A stretch of DNA of 64,000 nucleotides from Thioalkalivibrio thiocyanodenitrificans ARhD 1. Its GTDB lineage: Bacteria > Pseudomonadota > Gammaproteobacteria > Ectothiorhodospirales > Ectothiorhodospiraceae. Both the position numbers and the translations under genes were made by a program. Where the stretch lies: positions 2,915,407-2,979,406 of the forward strand of contig NZ_KB900536.1 of the NCBI RefSeq assembly GCF_000378965.1. Reading direction: 5' to 3'. This document shows positions 48,209 through 57,642 of this stretch, piece by piece (position 1 is the stretch's first letter; each line of letters begins with the position of its first letter). The notes below the pieces were generated by a model. The model saw nothing but the letters and a program-made list of their open reading frames with translations, made no database searches and had not been told where the DNA came from.

Positions 48209-48285
48209 TTCATCCTTCATCCTTCATCCTTCATCCTTCATCCTTCATCCTTCATCCTTCATCCTTCATCCTTCATCCTTCATCC
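48209..48285 (+). repeat. Eleven perfect TTCATCC heptamers
   Basis: 77 bp of uninterrupted TTCATCC units, the longest heptamer array in the window. It covers the last codons and the stop of the convergent minus-strand gene 48266-48694, so that protein ends MKDEG from repeat DNA. Confidence 0.95.
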
Positions 48286-48694
48286 TCAGGCGCGTCTCCA
48301 CACGCCCGACGATCTCGTCACTGAGTCTGCGCACCAGCGGTGTGACCGCCCTGTTCACCATCTTCTCCATCAGGCGGCTCCTGAGGCTGTACTCCAGCGT
48401 CAGGGTGATGCGGGTGCCGCCTTCTACGGCGGTGAGCCGGTAGGTTCCGCGGTTGTGCACGCCCGTCACCGAGCGCCAGGCCAGGCGCTCGTGCGGGGTG
48501 CATTCGATCACCTCCACCTCGAAACCCAGGCTCAGGCCCGCGGCGCGCACCTGCCAGCGATAGCGGTCTTCCCCGAGCGGCGTGACCGCCTCCACCGACT
48601 CGGAGTAGAGGGCGAAGTCCTCCACCCGGCTGATGAGCGCGAACACGGCCTCGGGGGCGGCCTGGATCTCCACTTCATGTTCGATGACGGGCAA
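48266..48694 (-). CDS. SRPBCC (START-like, RatA/Coq10-type) protein
   Basis: 142 residues: EIQAAPEAVFALISRVEDFALYSESVEAV at the start and a C-terminal amphipathic helix (RLMEKMVNRAVTPLVRRLSDEIVGRVETRLR), the hydrophobic-ligand-binding START fold of the polyketide cyclase/Coq10 group. The last five residues are encoded by the TTCATCC tandem array, so the natural stop was probably lost or shifted by repeat expansion. The ligand is unknown. Convergent with yihY. Confidence 0.8.
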   Translation of the reverse strand: MPVIEHEVEIQAAPEAVFALISRVEDFALYSESVEAVTPLGEDRYRWQVRAAGLSLGFEVEVIECTPHERLAWRSVTGVHNRGTYRLTAVEGGTRITLTLEYSLRSRLMEKMVNRAVTPLVRRLSDEIVGRVETRLRMKDEG

Positions 48695-48706
48695 GGGGGG
48701 CCTGGA

Positions 48707-48778
48707 TCAAAGTTCAAGATTCAAGATTCAAAGTTTAAAGCTCAAAGCTCAAAGCTCAAAGCTTAAAGTTCAAAGTTC
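48707..48778. repeat. 7-bp tandem repeat tract (TCAAAGC and variants)
   Basis: TCAAAGTTCAAGATTCAAGA continues to three perfect AGCTCAA units and then degenerate ones. Much more AT-rich than the surroundings. It lies directly upstream (on the minus strand) of the START-domain gene, so its promoter or 5' leader is within or beyond the tract. Confidence 0.85.
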
Positions 48779-48781
48779 CTG

Positions 48782-48880
48782 CGGGAGTATGTGATCTGCC
48801 TGGTCAAGGGCAAGGATGTGCGCCATATCGGCCTTGAGCAGATGGAGGAGGCGGCGCTGGGGAGAAAGAAGTCCGACTGA
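48782..48880 (+). pseudogene. Possible 3' remnant of a coding gene
   Basis: A 33-codon frame reads REYVICLVKGKDVRHIGLEQ and continues to a stop after AALGRKKSD, and looks like the C terminus of an enzyme rather than random sequence. Its 5' side is cut off exactly by the heptamer tract ending at 48778, so the rest may have been lost there. I cannot name the parent with confidence. The following 150 bp before the phosphoesterase gene show nothing recognisable. Confidence 0.35.
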
Positions 48881-49047
48881 GGGGGAAGGTGGATAAGCGA
48901 AGCGCATCCCCCGTGCGGATAGTGTCCTCTTCTCCCGGATGCATCCTCTTCAGGCAGGTCGGGCCACCCACGCCCTGACCCGCCGAGGACAAGCGCGGCG
49001 CGGCGTCCTCAAGGCGATCCCTCGGCCTGCAAAAAGGCGCGCGTCAC

Positions 49048-49899
49048 CTATCTGAAAGGCCTATCCGTTGACGTGGCGCGCAGCCACGCAAGTTCCGGGG
49101 GCAGTTCGATCGGTCGTGCACCGTCGGCCACAGGGCGGGGATCACTCGCGGCCAGGCGGCCATGATCCGACCAGTGGATCAGGTGCAAGGAGCCGCTGTG
49201 ATCCTCAATCAGGGCGGTGCAGTGTTCCACCCAGTCGCCGGTGTTGCAGTAGATTACGCCATGGTCAGAGTGCATGGTGGCCTTGTGGATGTGCCCCCCG
49301 ATGTAGCCGTCGTAACCCCTTTCCAGCGCGGTTCGGGAGGCGGCCGTCTCGAAACGGGAGATGTAGTCCCGGGCACGGCCTACCCGGGCCTTCGCCCAGG
49401 CCGAGAGGGACCAGTAGGGACGCCGCAGGCGTCGACGTGCGCGGCCGACAAAGTGGTTCATCCAGAGGAGCAGGTGATATCCCTTGTCGCCCAGCCAATG
49501 CTGGATCCGACCATGGCGGATCTTGTCATCAAACTCGTCGCCGTGGCTTACCAGAAGCCGTCGCCCGTCGGCGGTCAGGTGTTCGAGGTCGCGCAGGATT
49601 CGCACGCCGCGAACCTCCGCGCCGACCAGTGCACGCAGGGCCGCGTCGTGATTGCCCGGGATATAGATCACCTCTACGCCCCGGCGGCAGAGCGTGAACA
49701 CCTGCTCGATCACGGCAGTTTGTGCGCCATCCCAGTGGATGCGCCGACGCATGGCCTGGATGTCGATGATGTCACCGACCAGGACGAGACGTTCGCAATC
49801 CAGTCGTTCGAGAAAGTCCGCCAGGTAGGCGGCGCGGCACTGGCGGGTGCCAAGATGAGTGTCCGAAATGAACGCGGCTCGACAACGGAATGCTGACAT
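49048..49899 (-). CDS. PlcP/LpxH-like metallophosphoesterase
   Basis: 283 residues of the UDP-2,3-diacylglucosamine diphosphatase-like group: ISDTHLGTRQCRAAYLADFL, LVGDIIDI, IPGNHDAALR, SHGDEFDD and GYIGGHIHKA carry the two-metal ligands. Automatic annotation would say LpxH, but SDTHLG with an 80-residue helical cap also describes PlcP, the phospholipase C that strips phosphate head groups from PE/PG under phosphate limitation. The neighbours (GT4 glycosyltransferase, OlsB-like, PAP2, DgkA, PhoX) favour PlcP. LpxH cannot be excluded from sequence alone. Confidence 0.8.
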   Translation of the reverse strand: MSAFRCRAAFISDTHLGTRQCRAAYLADFLERLDCERLVLVGDIIDIQAMRRRIHWDGAQTAVIEQVFTLCRRGVEVIYIPGNHDAALRALVGAEVRGVRILRDLEHLTADGRRLLVSHGDEFDDKIRHGRIQHWLGDKGYHLLLWMNHFVGRARRRLRRPYWSLSAWAKARVGRARDYISRFETAASRTALERGYDGYIGGHIHKATMHSDHGVIYCNTGDWVEHCTALIEDHSGSLHLIHWSDHGRLAASDPRPVADGARPIELPPELAWLRATSTDRPFR

Positions 49900-49998
49900 G
49901 GCAGTGCTCCCCTTCTATGCCGTGCCGGCCACACCGGCGTGCTCCGCAGAGATCTGTCTAACGCCTTCGGGCAGCTGTTCAGTGCCGCCCAGGGGCCT

Positions 49999-50358
49999 TC
50001 ACACCAGGACCAGCACCCAGACCACCAGGGCGTGCGCGAAGGCCACGAACACCGCTGCGGATCCCAGGTCCTTGGCCCGGGCCGAGAGCTTGTGCCGTTC
50101 TCCGCCGAAGCGGTCGATCGCCGCCTCGATGCCCGAGTTCAGCAGTTCGACGATCAGGATTACGAACAGGCTACCGACGAGCAGTGCGCGTTCGAGCCCC
50201 GCGTCGGTCAGCCAGAAGGCCGCGGGTACGAGCACCAGGCAAAGCAGCAGCTCCTGGCGGAACGCCTCCTCGTGCCGGAAGGCCGAGCGCAGGCCGGTCC
50301 AGGAATAGCCGAAGGCCTTGATGATCCGGGTCAGGCCATGATGCGTGCTGTATGCCAT
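49999..50358 (-). CDS. dgkA: Diacylglycerol kinase
   Basis: 119 residues, three membrane helices, the small integral-membrane type. HEEAFRQELLLCLVLVPAAFWL and VELLNSGIEAAIDRFGGERHKLSARAKDLGSAAVFVAF carry the catalytic Glu residues and the family signature. It phosphorylates diacylglycerol to phosphatidic acid, which would recycle DAG produced by PlcP-like or other head-group turnover. 26 bp downstream of the OlsB-like gene. Confidence 0.95.
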   Translation of the reverse strand: MAYSTHHGLTRIIKAFGYSWTGLRSAFRHEEAFRQELLLCLVLVPAAFWLTDAGLERALLVGSLFVILIVELLNSGIEAAIDRFGGERHKLSARAKDLGSAAVFVAFAHALVVWVLVLV

Positions 50359-50384
50359 GCGGATTGACCGGCCTCGGGCAAAGG

Positions 50385-51149
50385 TCAGGACACGGGTTCG
50401 CGCGCGAAATGCCGGAGATAGCGCTGCGGTATGCGCCGGACGTCCAGAAGGACAAGGACATCCGCCACGCCGAAATCGGGGTCCCAGCAGGGCTCACCGC
50501 AGATCCAGGCGCCGAGGCGCAGATAGGCCTTCAGGAGCGGCGGGGCCGGGCGGGTGACGGTATTCCCAACGACCGGCGGGATGGGTCGACGCGGGCGCAC
50601 CGTGAACGTCTCCGGTGCCCGATGGTTCGCCAGAAGGTGACTTATCAGCCCATAGGCCGAGGTGTCTTGCGGGGTGAAGGGGATGCTGGCGCAACCCATC
50701 ATGTAGGCCACCCGGCGCTCGATCATGATCCGCGCCAGTCCAGTCCACAGGGCCTGGATGGCCGCGCCGTTCCTGTGATCATGCCGTACGCAGGTGCGGC
50801 CGACCTCCATGACCCGGCCCGGCAGTGTCTCCAGAGCGCCGAGTTCGAACTCGCCCTTCGAGTAGAATCCCCCGGCGAGCGGCGCCACGTCCGACATGAG
50901 AATCCGCGTGGTCGCCACCACTTCCTCCGTGTCGATGAGCCGCACCAGGAGGTGATGGCAGAAGGCGTCGTAGACATCGGCGTCGATGCCCTGATCTGCG
51001 CCGGAAGGGCGAGCGCCCAGTTCCTCCATGAAGACCTGATGGCGCAGGCGCTGGCAGGCAAACACTGCCGAAGGCGTCGAGGCAAGCTCGGTGGTCAGTG
51101 CGGGGCATGCAGGTACTATCCAGGGGTGCTGTTCGGCCAGGTGCGCCAT
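50385..51149 (-). CDS. OlsB-like N-acyltransferase (ornithine lipid synthesis)
   Basis: 254 residues from ATG 51149. It shows the GNAT-like acyl-ACP acyltransferase pattern: ACQRLRHQVFMEELG, DVYDAFCHHLLV near 80, EVGRTCVRHDHRNGAAIQALWTGL near 135 and MMGCASIPF. The first enzyme of ornithine lipid synthesis (OlsB) looks like this, as do some PEP-CTERM-associated acyltransferases. The second enzyme, OlsA, is not adjacent. Ornithine lipids replace phospholipids at low phosphate, matching the surrounding genes. Confidence 0.75.
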   Translation of the reverse strand: MAHLAEQHPWIVPACPALTTELASTPSAVFACQRLRHQVFMEELGARPSGADQGIDADVYDAFCHHLLVRLIDTEEVVATTRILMSDVAPLAGGFYSKGEFELGALETLPGRVMEVGRTCVRHDHRNGAAIQALWTGLARIMIERRVAYMMGCASIPFTPQDTSAYGLISHLLANHRAPETFTVRPRRPIPPVVGNTVTRPAPPLLKAYLRLGAWICGEPCWDPDFGVADVLVLLDVRRIPQRYLRHFAREPVS

Positions 51150-51271
51150 GGTCGTGTTCCCGCTCTCGTGGACGGGGATAGTCTGAGAGCGGAAAGTGGC
51201 AATATGGTGAAGCGCGAGTGAACGGTGCGTGAATCCGTCAGTGCGCGTGTCGGGCGCCATGCCGACGGGCT

Positions 51272-51832
51272 TCATGGGGCGCCGCCCGGTACCGGAGAGA
51301 GCGAGATGGAGCCGCCCGCGATCATCGCGCCGATGATCGCGCCTGCCAGTACATCGCTCGGGTAATGCAGGCCCAGTACGGGCCGCGATGCGGCCACGAG
51401 TATGGTGAACGGAACGACCACCCAGAGCCACGCCGGCAGGTGGCTCAACAGGACGAGCGAAAAGGCGACCGCGTGAAGTGTGTGCCCGGACGGGAAGCTG
51501 TACTCGTCAAGCGGCGGTGTGCGCCGAATGATATTGTCGCTGATCATGAAGGGGCGCGGACGGCCGGTACGGCCCTTGAGCCACTTGTACACGATCAGGC
51601 AGGTGAGCCCGGTCAGGGTCATGTGCACGCTGATCTGCAGTCCCTTGACGCCGTGCACCAGCGGGAGGATCAGCATCAGGGAGTACCAGAACACGCCGTC
51701 TCCGAGGCGGCTGATCAGGGCGAAGAATCGGCCCACGTGCTCACGGCGGTTGGCGCGGTTCAGGAGCCTGCACAGCGAAAGATCCAGTGCCTGCATGCGG
51801 GCGAGACCGGGAGAGGTGGTCGAGGCGGACAT
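51272..51832 (-). CDS. PAP2-family membrane phosphatase
   Basis: 186 residues, five to six helices. The three phosphatase motifs are present: KGRTGRPRPF, YSFPSGHTLHA and SRPVLGLHYPSDVLAG. It acts on lipid phosphates such as phosphatidic acid or undecaprenyl pyrophosphate. The start is four bases after the glycosyltransferase stop, so the two are coupled. Dephosphorylating PA would supply DAG, the acceptor for the neighbouring GT4. Confidence 0.9.
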   Translation of the reverse strand: MSASTTSPGLARMQALDLSLCRLLNRANRREHVGRFFALISRLGDGVFWYSLMLILPLVHGVKGLQISVHMTLTGLTCLIVYKWLKGRTGRPRPFMISDNIIRRTPPLDEYSFPSGHTLHAVAFSLVLLSHLPAWLWVVVPFTILVAASRPVLGLHYPSDVLAGAIIGAMIAGGSISLSPVPGGAP

Positions 51833-51836
51833 GGTT

Positions 51837-53042
51837 TCAGCCTCCTGCGGGTTCCTGGCACAGCCGTTGGAGTATTTGCTCGTGGCGCCGGCAGATCCTG
51901 GACCAGTCGAGCTCAAGGGTCGTTTCGCGCGCGGCAGCGGCGAGCCGGGCGGCCTGCGCGCGATCCGCCGCCAGTTCGGTGGATGTCCTGACAAATCCCT
52001 CGCTGTCAGAACAGGCCACCGTGCGGCCGTTGCGGCCGTCAACGATGTGCTCGCGCGCGGCTGCATAATCGAACGCCAGCACCGCCAGGCCGCTGGCCAT
52101 GGCCTCGAGCGTGACGTTACCGAAGGTTTCGCTCAGGCTGGGGAACAGGAAGATATCGGCCGAGGCATAGTGCTCGGCGAGGGCCGCGCCCGTCTGCATC
52201 CCCGCAAAATGCACCTCGGGGTGGGCGGCGGCGAGGTCCCTTCGGGCCGGACCGTCCCCCACCACCACCATGCGCGCGCCGGGAACCTGTTCACGGGCAT
52301 GCTCGTAGGCCCTGAGGGCAAGCGGCAGGTTCTTCTCCGGTGCGACACGGCTGACCATGAGCATGACCCGGTCGTCCGCGCCGGCGCCCCATGCCTCGCG
52401 CAGGTCGGCCCGGCGATGACGGGGATGGAACTGATCGGTATCGATCCCGCGCGCCAGTACCTCCAGCCGCCGAAAACCCTGGCGTTCCAGTTCGATCACG
52501 AGTGAGCGGGTCGGAACCAGTGTCAGCCGGGTCCGGTTGTGCAGGGTGCGCAGGTAGCGCAGGGCCACGGGCATGAGCGGACCCAGGCCGTAATGGGCCG
52601 TGTACTGATGAAAGTTGGTGTGGAAGTCGCTCACTACCGGGATGTTCAGTGCCCCGGCCGCACGAACGGCCGACCATCCCAGCGGACCCTCGGTGACGAT
52701 GTGCACCACATCCGGACGTTCCCGCCGCCAGCGCCTCTTCAGCAGGCCGGTACAGGGCAGTCCCATGCGCAGCTCGTGGTAGCGCGGCAGTGGCATGCCG
52801 CGCAGGACGAGGGTATCGACCCCGTCGATCCCGACGCCCCTATCGACGCCTCCCTGGCGTAACCGTATCAGAGTGACGTCATGGTGCGCGCTCAGCCCCT
52901 CCACCATGCGATGGATCGTCATTGCCACGCCATTGACCTCCGGCGGCCATGTCTCGGTCACGACCGATATGCGCAGACGAGCGAGGCCACCGCCGGCGGC
53001 GGCCGGCAGATCATTGGAAAGGTTCATGGCGGAGCCGTCCAT
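51837..53042 (-). CDS. GT4-family glycosyltransferase, probably lipid-directed
   Basis: 401 residues. N-terminal domain RISVVTETWPPEVNGVAMTI, acceptor-side HTNFHQYTAHYGLG, C-terminal nucleotide-sugar part ARGIDTDQFHP, MVSRVAPEKNLPLAL and FPSLSETFGNVTLEAMASGLAV (E-x7-E motif). It resembles the branch often labelled alpha-mannosyltransferase MgtA/Agt, which makes glycolipids from diacylglycerol. First gene of the GT4-PAP2 pair. A Pho-box-like site lies 34 bp before the start. An alternative ATG is at 53027. The sugar and acceptor are inferred. Confidence 0.85.
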   Translation of the reverse strand: MDGSAMNLSNDLPAAAGGGLARLRISVVTETWPPEVNGVAMTIHRMVEGLSAHHDVTLIRLRQGGVDRGVGIDGVDTLVLRGMPLPRYHELRMGLPCTGLLKRRWRRERPDVVHIVTEGPLGWSAVRAAGALNIPVVSDFHTNFHQYTAHYGLGPLMPVALRYLRTLHNRTRLTLVPTRSLVIELERQGFRRLEVLARGIDTDQFHPRHRRADLREAWGAGADDRVMLMVSRVAPEKNLPLALRAYEHAREQVPGARMVVVGDGPARRDLAAAHPEVHFAGMQTGAALAEHYASADIFLFPSLSETFGNVTLEAMASGLAVLAFDYAAAREHIVDGRNGRTVACSDSEGFVRTSTELAADRAQAARLAAAARETTLELDWSRICRRHEQILQRLCQEPAGG

Positions 53043-53075
53043 GCGGGCACTGTGCCTGACGAACTTTTCAGCCGG

Positions 53076-53093
53076 GTGACGGATCGATGACGA
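53076..53093 (-). promoter_or_regulatory. Candidate Pho box upstream of the glycosyltransferase
   Basis: Read on the minus strand: TCGTCAT, four bases CGAT, CCGTCAC. Two 11-bp-spaced half-sites match CTGTCAT/CTGTCAC at 5 and 6 of 7 positions. A weaker third half-site TCGTCAG follows further downstream. It would place the GT4-PAP2 genes under PhoB control. Confidence 0.5.
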
Positions 53094-53174
53094 AGGCGTT
53101 TAACCCGGACATTGCACCAGGGCGGTGGGGCCGGGTCCCGGTGCAGCCCGCTCGTCTTAGTCGGTTGACCGCCA

Positions 53175-53203
53175 GAAGAAAAAAGGCCCGCGCGAGGCGG
53201 GCC
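53175..53203 (-). terminator. Rho-independent terminator of phoX
   Basis: On the minus strand GGCCCGC CTCG GCGGGCC-type hairpin followed by CTTTTTTCTT. It lies about 57 bp after the phoX stop and separates it from the GT4 promoter region. Confidence 0.88.
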
Positions 53204-53259
53204 AGAGCAGGAGGAGACTGAAAAGGTGGGGCGTCCCTGCCCCCGGTTTCGCTCCTTGA

Positions 53260-55287
53260 TCACGTGCCGACCACGCCGCCGTCGTCCCTGGTGATGATCA
53301 CCGTGGCGGAGCGGGCGCGGGCGTTGCCGCCGTCGGGCCAGTTGGAGGCCACCTGGGGGAAGATCTCGCCGCTCTCGCCCGGGTGCTGGATGTTGATGAA
53401 CAGTGTGCGGTTGTCCGGCGTGGAGATGCAGCCGGTCACCTCCTGGCCCAGGGGACCGACGAAGAAGCGACGGATCTCACCCGTGTAGGGATTGGCGGCG
53501 AGCATCTGGTTGTTGCCGAAGCGGCCCTGCTCGGCACGTTGCTGGCTGCCGCCCATGTCCGTCTGGATCCAGAGCACCCCGTTGTGGTCGATCCACAGGC
53601 CGTCCGGACTGGCGAACATGTTGGTCTCATCCAAAGGCTCGCCGTCGAGCTTGCGACTGTCGTCGGTGGGACCGCCAAGGACGAAGATGTCCCACTCGAA
53701 ACGCAGCGCCCAGGGGCGGTTGCCCTGCTCGCGCCAGCGGATGATGTGGCCGAAGTCACTGTTGGCGCGGGGGTTGGCCGCATCCACCGGGTTGCTCGCC
53801 CCGCCCCGGGTGGAGTTGTTCGTCAGGGCGAAATAGACCTCGTTGGTCTGAGGGTGCACGGCGCCCCACTCGGGCCGGTCCATCTTGGTGGCACCCACCA
53901 CGTCGGCGGCCAGACGTGTGTTCACCAGCACGTCGGCCTGGTCCCTGAAGTCCACGCCGGCGGCGGCTGCCGCATCGCGGAAGGCCTTGTCGCGGATGTC
54001 CAGGGCGCGCCATTCGCCGGTGCCGTCATCGTGAAACACGGCAACAAACAGCGTGCCCCTGTCCAGGATGTCGCCCCTGGTCCGGCTGGGCTGGTAGCGG
54101 CCCTCGGTGACGAACTTGTAGATGTACTCGTTGCGGGCATCGTCACCGGAATAGAAGGTCAGGGGCTGACCGTTCTGCGCCGGAGCGAACACCACGCCCT
54201 CGTGGGCAAAGCGGCCCAGGGCGGTGCGCTTGACCGGGGTGCTCTCGGGATCGAAGGGGTCGATCTCCACGATCCAGCCCTGGCCGTTGGGCTCGTTGCG
54301 ATAGTCCTCCGTGGCGGACAGGCCCTTCACGGAGGCGTCGAAGCGGGCATACGCGTCGATGTGGGTGACGGTGTCCCAGCGGTAGCGGGTGTTGCCGGTG
54401 GGCACACCGTAGCGGGCCAGTTCGCGAGGACGCTCGCCGCTGCGATAGGCGAAGTAGCCGGCCCAGTTCTCCTCGCAGGTGAGGTAGGTGCCCCAGGGGG
54501 TGAAGCCGTGGGCGCAGTTGTTGAGGGTACCGCGGGTCATGGTGCCGTCGGGGCTGTACCTGGTCTTCACCAGGTCGGAGCCGCGCACCGGGCCGCTGAT
54601 CTCCATGGGGGTGCCGGCGGTGATGCGGCGGTTGTACTCGCCCTTCACCACTTCCCACTCGCCGTGGGCCACTTCGCGCACTTGCACCACGGACACGCCG
54701 TGTGCGGCCACTTCCTTGCGCACCTCGTCCTCGATTACGCGGGCACCCCCCACGATGGTGGCGCCGTTGGGATGCAGCTTGGGCTGGTCGATGTATTCGT
54801 GGTTCATGCAGATCAGGCCATGGAGGTTGGCCTCGTCACCGCTGCCCAGGGGGAAGAAGTGGATGCCGTCATGGTTCATGCCGATCTGGCATTCCTGGTC
54901 GGCGCCGGTGTTCAGCCCGCCGTCCACGTAGGAGGGGTAGTCGCCGCAGATGGGTGTGCCCCAGGGCAGGAAGGGCCTGGCGGTGTAGCCGGCGGGCACC
55001 ACGGTGGTGTCTGCGATGGACACGGGTACGGGAGTGAAACCCAGTTCGCCCTTCAGGCCGAAAGGGGGTCGGCCCTGGGCCCGGGGCGGCAGGAAGCCGG
55101 GGGCAGCCAGGGCACCGGCGCCGGCGGAGGCGAACACGCCCGCCATGGCCGCGGCGATACCGCCACGCATCACATCGCGCCGGGAGACACGCTTCTCCAG
55201 TATGCTGGCGAAGGTGGGGTTGCCGGAGGTATTGCTCGGGATCTCGTCGCCATCGGTGGCGTGAAGCAGTTGTGTCTTGTCTTTCAT
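53260..55287 (-). CDS. phoX: PhoX-type alkaline phosphatase, Tat-exported
   Basis: 675 residues (DUF839). The N terminus has a twin-arginine signal VSRRDVMRGGIAAAMAGVFASAGAGALA near 33-60, so the folded enzyme with its Fe/Ca cofactor is exported by Tat. PhoX landmarks include ICMNHEY near 150, AHGFTPWGTYLTCEENW near 265, TYSGDDARNEYIYKFV-like segments and NMFASPDGLWIDHNGVLWIQTD near 555. A GAAGGAG site precedes the ATG. It releases phosphate from organic esters under phosphate limitation, agreeing with the adjacent lipid genes. Confidence 0.93.
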   Translation of the reverse strand: MKDKTQLLHATDGDEIPSNTSGNPTFASILEKRVSRRDVMRGGIAAAMAGVFASAGAGALAAPGFLPPRAQGRPPFGLKGELGFTPVPVSIADTTVVPAGYTARPFLPWGTPICGDYPSYVDGGLNTGADQECQIGMNHDGIHFFPLGSGDEANLHGLICMNHEYIDQPKLHPNGATIVGGARVIEDEVRKEVAAHGVSVVQVREVAHGEWEVVKGEYNRRITAGTPMEISGPVRGSDLVKTRYSPDGTMTRGTLNNCAHGFTPWGTYLTCEENWAGYFAYRSGERPRELARYGVPTGNTRYRWDTVTHIDAYARFDASVKGLSATEDYRNEPNGQGWIVEIDPFDPESTPVKRTALGRFAHEGVVFAPAQNGQPLTFYSGDDARNEYIYKFVTEGRYQPSRTRGDILDRGTLFVAVFHDDGTGEWRALDIRDKAFRDAAAAAGVDFRDQADVLVNTRLAADVVGATKMDRPEWGAVHPQTNEVYFALTNNSTRGGASNPVDAANPRANSDFGHIIRWREQGNRPWALRFEWDIFVLGGPTDDSRKLDGEPLDETNMFASPDGLWIDHNGVLWIQTDMGGSQQRAEQGRFGNNQMLAANPYTGEIRRFFVGPLGQEVTGCISTPDNRTLFINIQHPGESGEIFPQVASNWPDGGNARARSATVIITRDDGGVVGT

Positions 55288-55502
55288 GGTGGGCTCCTTC
55301 TTCCTGGGTCAGGATGGGGTTGCATTGCAGCCGGGAAGTCTGGTGGGTCTCTGTGACAACCCTGTTTAGCCCTGGTGTGATTTCGATGAAGCGGGAGCCC
55401 GTTCACACTTCACTCTGCACTCCGAAACCGTTACCATGCCCGGCCATTCACGCTGCGTGAATGCATAAGACGCCGGCCTCCGGCCGGCAACCATGACCCA
55501 TC

Positions 55503-55710
55503 AGGTGTTCCGCCCCGAAAATGCCGGGCGCGGAATGAAACGGGAAGCAGGTGAGAGGCCTGCGCTGCCCCCGCAACGGTGATGGGAGGGTCATGGAGCG
55601 GAAGCCTGCTCCATGACCCCGCGAAACGAGCGCCACTGCGCCCTGGGCGTGGGAAGGTGTTTCGCGGGATCGATGCGCTCGATACTCCCCAAGCCCGGAG
55701 ACCGGCCTGA
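55503..55710 (+). ncRNA. Cobalamin riboswitch
   Basis: The conserved elements appear in order: GGGAAGCAGGTGAGAGGCC at 55542, CTGCCCCCGCAACGGT at 55565, the B12 box GCCACTGCG at 55632, GGGAAGGTG at 55651, and a closing AAGCCCGGAGACCGGCCTG ending near 55709. It lies 117 bp before the btuB-like start, so binding of adenosylcobalamin should shut off the receptor. Confidence 0.95.
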
Positions 55711-55827
55711 CGGGTTGCAACCGGACTGCGGTGGGCCGTCTGGCGGATTCCGGCGTACGCTGATGCGTGGCGCCCGCCCGCCCGTCATGCCCGCCCGGCC
55801 ATCTTCAGTGGCTTGCGGAGGGCAACC

Positions 55828-57642
55828 ATGCGACATATTTCTTTTCGATCCCGGTCTCTCGCCGGACTGGGCCTGATCCTGTCGGCACACGCGGCGGCCA
55901 TGCCCGCCCATGGTGCCGATGTCCTGGACCCCATCATCGTGACCACGGCCACCCGAACGGCCGTGACGGCGGACGAGACCCTGGCGCCGGTGACCATCAT
56001 CACGCGCGAGGACATCGAGCGGACGCCGGCGGTGGATGTGGCGGATCTGCTGAATACCCATGCCAATATCGACGTGGCACGCAACGGGGGCTTCGGTCAG
56101 CCGGTGTCCACCTTCATTCGCGGTGCCAACAGCAGTCACACGCTGGTGCTGGTGGATGGCGTGCGCATCAACCCCGGCACCATCGGGCTGGCTGCGCTGC
56201 AGAACATCGATCCGGCCCACGTCGAGCGCATCGAGGTGGTGCGCGGTCCGCGCTCGGCCCTGTACGGCTCCGATGCCATCGGCGGGGGGATCAACGTCAT
56301 CACCCGCGAGCCGCCGGAAGGGGGGCGCTGGGAGGCGTCCGCCGGTGCCGGAAACCATGGCGCCCGCAGCGGGCGCGCCTCCGTTGGCGGGGCGCAGGGA
56401 CCGTGGCGGGGTGGAGTGTCGGTGAGTCACTTCGAGGCCGACGGCTATCCGGTGGTCTCCGATGCCGAGACCGATCACGGTCATCGCAACACCTCGTTCA
56501 ACGCCCATGCCGGCGTCGATCTGGGGGCCTGGGACGTGGATCTGAACCACTGGCAGGCTGAAGGGCGTACCGAGTACTGGAGCTTTGGCGACCTGAGCCA
56601 GGATTTCCTGGATCGGGTCACGGCGCTCACGGGACGTTACGGGACCCACGGCCCTTCCTCGGGCCGGCTGCGGGTGACCTATCATCGCAGCCGGATCGAC
56701 CAGAATGACGAGAACTTCCTTGGCGACCTGGACCATGCCCACACGACCCGCACCGGCGTGGAATGGCAGCATGATCACGCCATCGCCCCCAACCAGTTGT
56801 TGACACTGGGGATCGGCTGGGAACGCGAGGAGGTGAATGCCCTGTCCTTCGGCACCCGTATCGACGAACGCAATCACGTGCGCTCCGGCTTCGTCCAGCA
56901 TGATCTGGAAGCGGGGCCGCACCGGGTGATCGGCGCCTTGCGCGTCACCGACCACGACGCCTTCGGCAGCCGCACCACGGGGAATCTGGACTACGGGTAC
57001 CGGCTGTCATCCCGGTGGCGTCTCACCGCGGGCGCGGGTACCGCCTACCGCGCGCCGGACAACACCGACCGTTTCGGCTTCGGCGGCAACCCGGACCTGC
57101 GCCCCGAAACCTCGCGCAGCGTGGAAGCGGGCGTGCGTTTTCAGCCGGCCCCGGGCACGCGGTGGCGGGCTGTCGTGTTCGAGAACCGCATCCGCGATCT
57201 GATCATCTTTGACGGTACGCGGATGGAGAACGTGGAGCGGGCGCGCATCACCGGACTGGAGGTATCCGTGGACCACCGTGCCGGGCCCTGGCGCAGCCGT
57301 GCGGAGCTTCTCTGGCAGACGCCGCGCAACGAGACGCGCGACGAGCGCCTGCCGCGCCGGGCCCGGGAACGGGCCGCGTTCACCCTGGCCTACGATCAGG
57401 GCCGCTCGGACTACCAGGCGCAGGTGGTGGCCGTGGGCGGACGCAAGGATTCGAGCTTCAGCGATGAGACGCTCTCCGGCTATGGTCTGCTGAACCTGTC
57501 CGCCGGCCATCGCCTGAGTGGCATCTGGATGCTGCGGGGCACGGTGGAGAATCTGCTGGACCGGGATTACGAGACCGCCGCGGGCTATCCCGCGCGCGGG
57601 CGATTTGTCATGCTGACCCTCTCGGCCGGGGGCGGCCTGTAA
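55828..57642 (+). CDS. btuB: TonB-dependent vitamin B12 receptor (BtuB-like)
   Basis: 604 residues from ATG 55828 (GGAGGG at -11). Signal peptide ending AHAAAMPAHGAD, TonB box-like DPIIVTTATR, plug domain VTIITREDIERTPAVDVADLLNTHANIDVARNGG...RGANSSHTLVLVDGVRINPGT...ERIEVVRGPRSALYGSDAIGGGINVIT, and a 22-strand barrel ending in LSAGGGL instead of an aromatic residue. The upstream cobalamin riboswitch identifies the ligand class. Supplies B12 for NrdJ and other enzymes. No btuCDF nearby. Confidence 0.93.
   Translation: MRHISFRSRSLAGLGLILSAHAAAMPAHGADVLDPIIVTTATRTAVTADETLAPVTIITREDIERTPAVDVADLLNTHANIDVARNGGFGQPVSTFIRGANSSHTLVLVDGVRINPGTIGLAALQNIDPAHVERIEVVRGPRSALYGSDAIGGGINVITREPPEGGRWEASAGAGNHGARSGRASVGGAQGPWRGGVSVSHFEADGYPVVSDAETDHGHRNTSFNAHAGVDLGAWDVDLNHWQAEGRTEYWSFGDLSQDFLDRVTALTGRYGTHGPSSGRLRVTYHRSRIDQNDENFLGDLDHAHTTRTGVEWQHDHAIAPNQLLTLGIGWEREEVNALSFGTRIDERNHVRSGFVQHDLEAGPHRVIGALRVTDHDAFGSRTTGNLDYGYRLSSRWRLTAGAGTAYRAPDNTDRFGFGGNPDLRPETSRSVEAGVRFQPAPGTRWRAVVFENRIRDLIIFDGTRMENVERARITGLEVSVDHRAGPWRSRAELLWQTPRNETRDERLPRRARERAAFTLAYDQGRSDYQAQVVAVGGRKDSSFSDETLSGYGLLNLSAGHRLSGIWMLRGTVENLLDRDYETAAGYPARGRFVMLTLSAGGGL

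Follow-up and report, generated by a model that had tools for sequence, protein, structure and literature searches.

The 64,000-nucleotide stretch of the Thioalkalivibrio thiocyanodenitrificans ARhD 1 genome analyzed here (contig NZ_KB900536.1, positions 2,915,407 to 2,979,406; hereafter the window) carries five adjacent genes that encode a GT4 glycosyltransferase, a PAP2-family phosphatase, an OlsB-like acyltransferase, the diacylglycerol kinase DgkA and a PlcP-type phosphoesterase, preceded by a Pho-box-like array. We consider it likely that these genes form a lipid-remodelling operon under PhoB control. The parts and the strategy are already known, and the probable operon, with plcP and olsB joined, would be a more complete variant.

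According to the proposed mechanism, at low phosphate PhoB would bind the array before the GT4 gene and turn the operon on. PlcP would cut the head-group phosphate from phospholipids to leave diacylglycerol, and GT4 would add a sugar to it, giving a phosphorus-free glycolipid, while OlsB would acylate ornithine and a separately encoded OlsA would complete the ornithine lipid. The probable role of PAP2 is to remove phosphate from a lipid phosphate, in the simplest case phosphatidate, which would yield more diacylglycerol; any surplus of diacylglycerol could be converted back to phosphatidate by DgkA. The adjacent alkaline phosphatase PhoX would be a separate scavenging enzyme. If this scheme is true, the two known routes to phosphorus-free membranes, by glycolipid and by ornithine lipid, would stand under one Pho-box promoter in Thioalkalivibrio relatives.

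Organization of the locus

A previous reading made from the sequence only had placed six contiguous genes on the minus strand, and both the coordinates and the Pfam matches bear this out. Along the direction of transcription their order is phoX, GT4, PAP2, olsB, dgkA and plcP (Table 1), and judging from reading frames there is no further plausible gene between them. The GT4 and PAP2 genes are 4 bp apart. PAP2 and olsB overlap by 4 bp when the longest olsB start (51275) is used and are separated by about 120 bp when the start is 51149, which is favoured by alignment with relatives. The next two spacings are 26 bp (olsB to dgkA) and 99 bp (dgkA to plcP). Between phoX and GT4, however, there is a gap of 217 bp with a terminator-like hairpin. 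Thus the same reading's 'one locus' stands as regards contiguity and fails as a single unit, since the hairpin and the gap split phoX from the other five genes, which form a probable operon with, presumably, a single transcript. The linkage appears to exceed chance because the same gene set is joined in several relatives. A promoter scan of positions 48600-56000 found no sigma-70-like site.

Assignment of the phosphoesterase to the PlcP family

The phosphoesterase matches the Metallophos family of Pfam with 43.7 bits. In an alignment of 25 rows, the metallophosphoesterase motifs D.H, GD..D, GNHD, HGD and GHIH are all kept, and the metal-site residues D13, H15, D43, N83, H84, H119, H203 and H205 are invariant. 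The protein is 48% identical over 236 residues to a Pseudomonas aeruginosa protein encoded upstream of a GT4 gene, and 41% identical over 242 residues to a Sinorhizobium protein whose gene adjoins those of an acyl-homoserine-lactone synthase and a LuxR-type regulator. Judging by gene order, we take these references to be PA3219 (of the PA3219-PA3218 locus) and SMc00171. The closest named locus belongs to a Thioalkalivibrio metagenome bin, with a 67% identical PlcP. PA3218 lies directly downstream of PA3219, and both function in glycolipid formation (excerpt of PMC8528852).

In a tree of 40 proteins, the window protein groups with both validated PlcP proteins, across a long branch (100/100) from 12 LpxH proteins, all of which come from this genome and its relatives. 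This phylogeny agrees with the earlier preference for PlcP over LpxH. Judged by its sequence the protein is a member of the PlcP family, and hydrolysis of phosphatidylethanolamine or phosphatidylglycerol to diacylglycerol is its predicted activity. Homologues of plcP are also found on three P. aeruginosa plasmid records (H14-H16), with a GT4 gene following in H14, the sole record with neighbours read; a search of viral contigs for PlcP relatives gave none that was confirmed.

Evidence for phosphate control

The array before the GT4 gene, at -51 from its ATG, reads TCGTCAT-CGAT-CCGTCAC-CCGG-CTGAAAA with half-sites 11 bp apart, the best two of which are TCGTCAT-CGAT-CCGTCAC at 53093-53076. Its shuffle P values for two, three and four half-sites are 0.010, 0.007 and 0.007 (300 shuffles each, uncorrected for the several genes tested). 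The array is kept in the same register in G002, G031, G019, G038 and G029, with the score for three half-sites attained by 0 to 1% of shuffles; these five genomes are related and not independent, and the alignment covers four of the six sequences. Weak when the window is taken by itself, the evidence for a Pho box becomes stronger through this conservation. More broadly, 19 of 122 regions before PlcP genes have at least 11 of 14 consensus matches, with about 1.8 expected. In olsB-GT4-PAP2 clusters an array precedes olsB, clearly in G003, G004 and G007 and more weakly in G005, G017 and G026, and weak arrays (P 0.02 to 0.32) precede plcP in L041, L042 and L071. The candidate regulator PhoB is encoded in the genome (363.9 bits, cut-off 296.2) next to PhoR (459.7 bits, cut-off 390), and phoB itself has a Pho-like site 75 bp upstream.

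Of the 40 relatives' loci, 11 have pst, phoU or phoBR genes in any orientation at most 9 kb from plcP, a count that leaves out L046 with its PstB-like match only. Among 80 named contigs, phoBR or phoU-pstB matches of at least 42% identity occur in three more (L141, L164 and L195; L118 repeats L063, and the single weak matches of L176 and L183 are uncounted). In seven relatives' loci plcP is convergent with pstSCAB-phoU (L032, L041, L042, L062, L063, L065 and L071, L062 being a short contig with only phoU and pstB on it). The pstSCAB-phoU genes of G002 occupy 7 kb between an SRPBCC-type gene and plcP and, running on the strand opposite to plcP, end 131 bp away from it; PstS, PstA, PstB and PhoU score over the NCBIfam cut-offs and PstC just under (184 of 196 bits). 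In G029, the lipid genes, phoU-pst and phoRB lie within about 20 kb and share one 26.7-kb contig with a distant phoX. Together, the conserved array and this linkage support the phosphate control suggested earlier.

The window itself retains a plus-strand phoU fragment, in which 28 codons are 79% identical to residues 212-239 of the 241 of G002 PhoU, and a whole-genome search recovered it with E 7.5e-8. Searches of this genome gave just one full phoU, located at C1:1753-1764 kb next to pst and phoRB. On the simplest reading, pst-phoU and the lipid operon were once neighbours here, as they are in G002, until a deletion or relocation removed pst-phoU. Two 7-bp minisatellites flank the SRPBCC-type gene (TTCATCC x 11 at 48209-48286 and TCAAAGT x 10 at 48707-48778); the latter stops at the phoU fragment and is a possible mark of the deletion junction.

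OlsB, OlsA and DgkA

The OlsB-like protein matches Acetyltransf_5 (PF13444) with 105 bits and is 34.7% identical to a Sinorhizobium meliloti protein that passes one OlsB cut-off with 511 bits. The initial label of this gene was right, though the NCBIfam scores (below) are under their cut-offs; a PDB search gave little information (best E 0.0037, an acyl-homoserine-lactone synthase). Twelve further stretches from relatives were read, and ten hold olsB, either at a distance from plcP or where the genome lacks plcP. GT4 and PAP2 genes stand beside olsB in nine of these ten loci, eight with the order olsB-GT4-PAP2 and L111 with GT4-PAP2-olsB, the exception being G067. L105 and L106, which continue L066 and L069, hold GT4-PAP2 only.

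In seven of the ten olsB loci, we translated the sequence that separates olsB from the adjacent gene. A PlsC-type (OlsA-like) gene next to olsB was recognized by eye in six, and none in L111 with its other gene order; the one such protein scored, from G003, reached 136 and 126 bits with the NCBIfam OlsA models, below the cut-off of 300. In the window genome, a 74% identical orthologue is encoded at C1:2880652-2881392, about 85 kb from olsB, and the 18 kb read around it contain no olsB, GT4 or PAP2 gene. DgkA was identified by PF01219 (112.4 bits, cut-off 22.3) and by an alignment of 112 residues to the solved DgkA 3ze3 (best PDB E 2e-33). A second dgkA is located at G000:C1:2854861-2855166, beside genes resembling glycine dehydrogenase by eye.

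The GT4 glycosyltransferase and the PAP2 phosphatase

The window GT4 protein has GT4 domains (about 100 bits in Pfam) and shares 32% identity with Agt1 across 324 residues. We built a GT4 tree from 38 selected rows, including a copy of Agt1 and leaving out the GT4 proteins of G003 and G004. The plcP-neighbouring GT4 proteins fall into three clades, namely an Agt1-like clade of 15 rows, the window clade (9 rows, 100/99) and a third one. The window clade adjoins the Agt1 clade when the tree is rooted at its midpoint. This adjacency depends on that rooting, and a program warning pointed to long branches meeting between the third clade and the window clade. From sequence, the window GT4 may at most function in the manner of Agt; it lies outside the Agt clade, and its acceptor is open to direct testing. 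The NCBIfam model that fits it best is GlcNAc-phosphatidylglycerol synthase (134 bits), followed by glucosyl-diacylglycerol synthase, both below cut-off. In the PDB it has two matches with E no higher than 1e-10, both to PimA-type phosphatidylinositol mannosyltransferases. For the PAP2 protein (PF01569, 79.5 bits), the best PDB match is LpxE (6ebu, E 2e-11) and the best NCBIfam match is undecaprenyl-diphosphatase (69 bits, below cut-off).

Apart from the glucosyl-diacylglycerol synthase model, these database matches, together with the separate GT4 clade, favour a different reading, in which GT4 glycosylates another acceptor such as a phospholipid or polyprenol, PAP2 acts on undecaprenyl diphosphate or, like LpxE, on lipid A, and only PlcP and OlsB remodel lipids. 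The same reading draws on the genomes that have both GT4 (threshold E 1e-50) and olsB (threshold E 1e-15). Among the 116 there are 31 such genomes, of which 9 lack PlcP (threshold E 1e-20); 7 of these 9 are at least 99% complete, and in one of the seven or nine, G023, the olsB match is weak (E 1.6e-27). Kinship and incomplete genomes confound these counts. The position of the window clade next to Agt1 speaks against it, as do the glucosyl-diacylglycerol synthase model in second place, the Pho-like array immediately before the GT4 gene, and the 32% identity to Agt1, a value of less than 25% being given for the Agt clade versus GT4 proteins outside it (excerpt of PMC8231724). On balance we regard it as possible but rather unlikely.

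Because GT4 and olsB occur together without PlcP in those nine genomes, a further idea may be put forward still more tentatively. GT4, PAP2 and OlsB(A) might constitute a self-sufficient module for phosphorus-free lipids with no need of PlcP, in which PAP2, as a phosphatidate phosphatase, would draw diacylglycerol from new synthesis for the new GT4 clade, and OlsBA would make ornithine lipid. PlcP and a second DgkA would have been added in some lineages, resulting in a two-way valve between diacylglycerol and phosphatidate under PhoB that both prevents and reverses the build-up of phospholipid.

Observations at odds with the proposed operon

Several findings weigh against a PhoB-controlled lipid-remodelling operon. 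The window GT4 belongs to a different clade from the validated Agt. The best site of the window has 10 of 14 consensus matches, with a shuffle P of about 0.01 uncorrected for several tests, and a strict consensus search (at most 2 mismatches) gave 8 genome sites, the GT4 site not among them, versus 7 in the reversed control. In G030 and G013 the search revealed no array ahead of olsB, and in L039, L040, L043 and L044 none ahead of plcP. The OlsB-like protein scores 148.5 bits (cut-off 320) and 142.9 bits (cut-off 350) with the NCBIfam OlsB models, whose names suggest alphaproteobacterial seeds, so that the missed cut-offs are weak evidence. In the close relative G002 olsB is absent, about 90 bp of its 3' end being left between PAP2 and dgkA (L032), and the ornithine-lipid arm is thus dispensable there. 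Short similar sequences at both ends of this scar suggest a deletion between repeats. Finally, a diacylglycerol kinase spends ATP and puts phosphate back into lipid, which is odd for phosphate saving and raises the question of why its gene sits in such an operon.

PhoX as a separate neighbour

PhoX is well recognized by PF05787 (536 bits) and a PDB PhoX match (E 1e-136), and has the sequence SRRDVM near its N-terminus, which we take to be a twin-arginine signal. The hairpin behind the gene consists of a stem at 53203-53185 followed by TTTTTTCTTC, has seven G-C pairs and folds with z -2.1. The terminator scan as such gave 3 sites of this kind in 7.4 kb versus 3.2 in shuffles; the case for a phoX terminator is made because of the position of the hairpin, its seven G-C pairs and the conservation of its stem behind phoX in G003 and G004.

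The sequence-only reading had counted PhoX as a member of the module, a placement supported neither by this hairpin nor by the 0 of 123 other loci with phoX within 9 kb of plcP. These derive from 124 loci (40 relatives, 4 plasmid records and 80 genome contigs) less L180, which has no PlcP frame; 25 of the 124 are shorter than 12 kb, ending at contig ends, and at least two genomes appear twice (L118 with L063, L172 with L050). PhoX is present in 14 of 116 genomes, window genome included, and is not associated with PlcP (7 genomes with both, Fisher P 0.38), these presence counts being confounded by kinship and incomplete genomes. No recognizable Pho box precedes phoX in the window (P 0.75, 0.67 and 0.21 for two, three and four half-sites) or in three relatives. 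The segment 53179-55341, comprising phoX and its hairpin, has a counterpart of 86% identity at another place in G003, and the PhoX protein is 89% identical in G003 and 57% in G004, though the LpxH proteins of these two genomes are close sisters. By sequence, phoX fits a cassette moving on its own, by separate transfer.

A six-gene module to which phoX belongs by both function and regulation would accord with the adjacency of phoX on the same strand, with the PhoBR dependence of PhoX in Pseudomonas putida (excerpt of PMC5082522) and with the 35% identical phoX that lies about 17 kb from plcP in G029, beyond pst and phoBR. Set against the hairpin conserved in three genomes, the missing Pho boxes, the absence of linkage and association, and the signs of separate transfer, it appears improbable, and we rejected phoX as an operon member. 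A TonB-dependent receptor gene is found near phoX both in the window (55813-57642, BtuB-like, below cut-off) and in G003 (L098:11235-13364), the two receptors being only distantly alike.

Rejection of an LpxH-type enzyme

An LpxH-type lipid A enzyme in an envelope-biogenesis cluster without phosphate control, suggested by the weak match of the window phosphoesterase to the LpxH model (43.9 bits, cut-off 134) and by the label UDP-2,3-diacylglucosamine diphosphatase that many relatives bear in public records, is highly improbable and already largely refuted, given the very long branch between PlcP and LpxH and LpxH matches above cut-off in 54 of 58 genomes searched, window genome included. The phosphoesterase is thus not the only LpxH candidate of this genome, in which a canonical LpxH (311.7 bits) is encoded at C1:3271 kb, next to a gene matching peptidyl-prolyl isomerase models (best 248 bits, below cut-offs). 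The window protein and this LpxH share 24% identity over 209 residues; on these grounds and on the tree separation we discarded the LpxH identity.

Table 1. Coordinates of the locus features in the window
Feature	Position	Strand	Basis
plcP, metallophosphoesterase, predicted PlcP-type phospholipase C	49048..49899	-	PlcP tree, identities, metal-site residues
dgkA, diacylglycerol kinase, one of two genome copies	49999..50358	-	PF01219, PDB match
olsB-like ornithine N-acyltransferase	50385..51275, start perhaps 51149	-	PF13444, NCBIfam OlsB below cut-off
PAP2-family lipid phosphatase	51272..51832	-	PF01569, PDB match LpxE 6ebu
GT4 glycosyltransferase, predicted diacylglycerol acceptor	51837..53042	-	GT4 domains, Agt1 identity, tree
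PhoB-box-like array, half-sites each 11 bp	53065..53104	-	Shuffles, conservation in five relatives
Terminator-like hairpin of phoX	53175..53203	-	Scan, folding, conservation in G003 and G004
phoX, alkaline phosphatase, neighbour in separate unit	53260..55287	-	PF05787
3'-terminal phoU fragment, convergent with plcP	48770..48868	+	Similarity to G002 PhoU

Comparison with known systems

The probable operon resembles the plcP-agt operons of SAR11 HTCC7211, P. aeruginosa (PA3219-PA3218) and Methylosinus OB3b in the linkage of a PlcP homologue to a GT4 gene. It differs in that the window GT4 is of another clade and leads the operon rather than following plcP, and in the addition of olsB, PAP2 and dgkA. 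Pho boxes have been reported for plcP clusters and for P. aeruginosa (excerpts of PMC4796936, PMC8528852 and PMC9239053). The OlsBA pathway is represented here by olsB, and in relatives by adjacent olsB and olsA, whereas in the window genome olsA is remote and olsB is joined to plcP. With canonical LpxH, the phosphoesterase shares the metallophosphoesterase superfamily but neither the clade nor close identity, and the genome retains its own LpxH.

Nearly the same protein set as encoded here is phosphate-responsive in P. putida BIRD-1, in which PlcP, DagK, OlsA, OlsB and PhoX were enriched at low phosphate and PlcP, OlsAB and PhoX were absent from a phoBR mutant (excerpt of PMC5082522). In that strain the locus numbers of olsAB, phoX and plcP are far apart (same excerpt), while here plcP, dgkA and olsB are in one probable operon, with olsA elsewhere. 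Searches of the available literature, supplementary tables aside, turned up no account of plcP and olsB sharing a (Pho-box) operon, and a single search joining Thioalkalivibrio and ornithine lipid found no paper. The expectation of a fuller module than previously described would hold for the union of plcP and olsB; the protein set was partly anticipated in P. putida, and PhoX probably does not belong to the module.

Evolution and gene content in relatives

PlcP and LpxH group the window genome (G000) and G002 with different partners. In the PlcP tree both cluster with G029, G031, G037, G038 and G019 (7 rows, 100/99) and not with G004 (G003, whose PlcP is 55% identical, was left out), whereas by LpxH they group with G003 and G004 (100/97). 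Similarly, the window GT4 is 67-72% identical to those of ten g3 genomes, including G019, G029, G031, G037 and G038, and 51-52% to those of G003 and G004. By these comparisons the operon has probably been exchanged between lineages.

Additional genes occur within the lipid gene clusters of some relatives. In G038 an ArsJ-associated glyceraldehyde-3-phosphate dehydrogenase (517 bits, cut-off 450) is encoded inside the cluster at L063:7782-8795, and a matching frame was seen by eye in L065 of G029; a link between arsenate and phosphate starvation is possible. In G029, PAP2 and olsB are separated by an antisense gene that encodes a pyruvate-kinase barrel domain (L065:2167-4182, minus strand).

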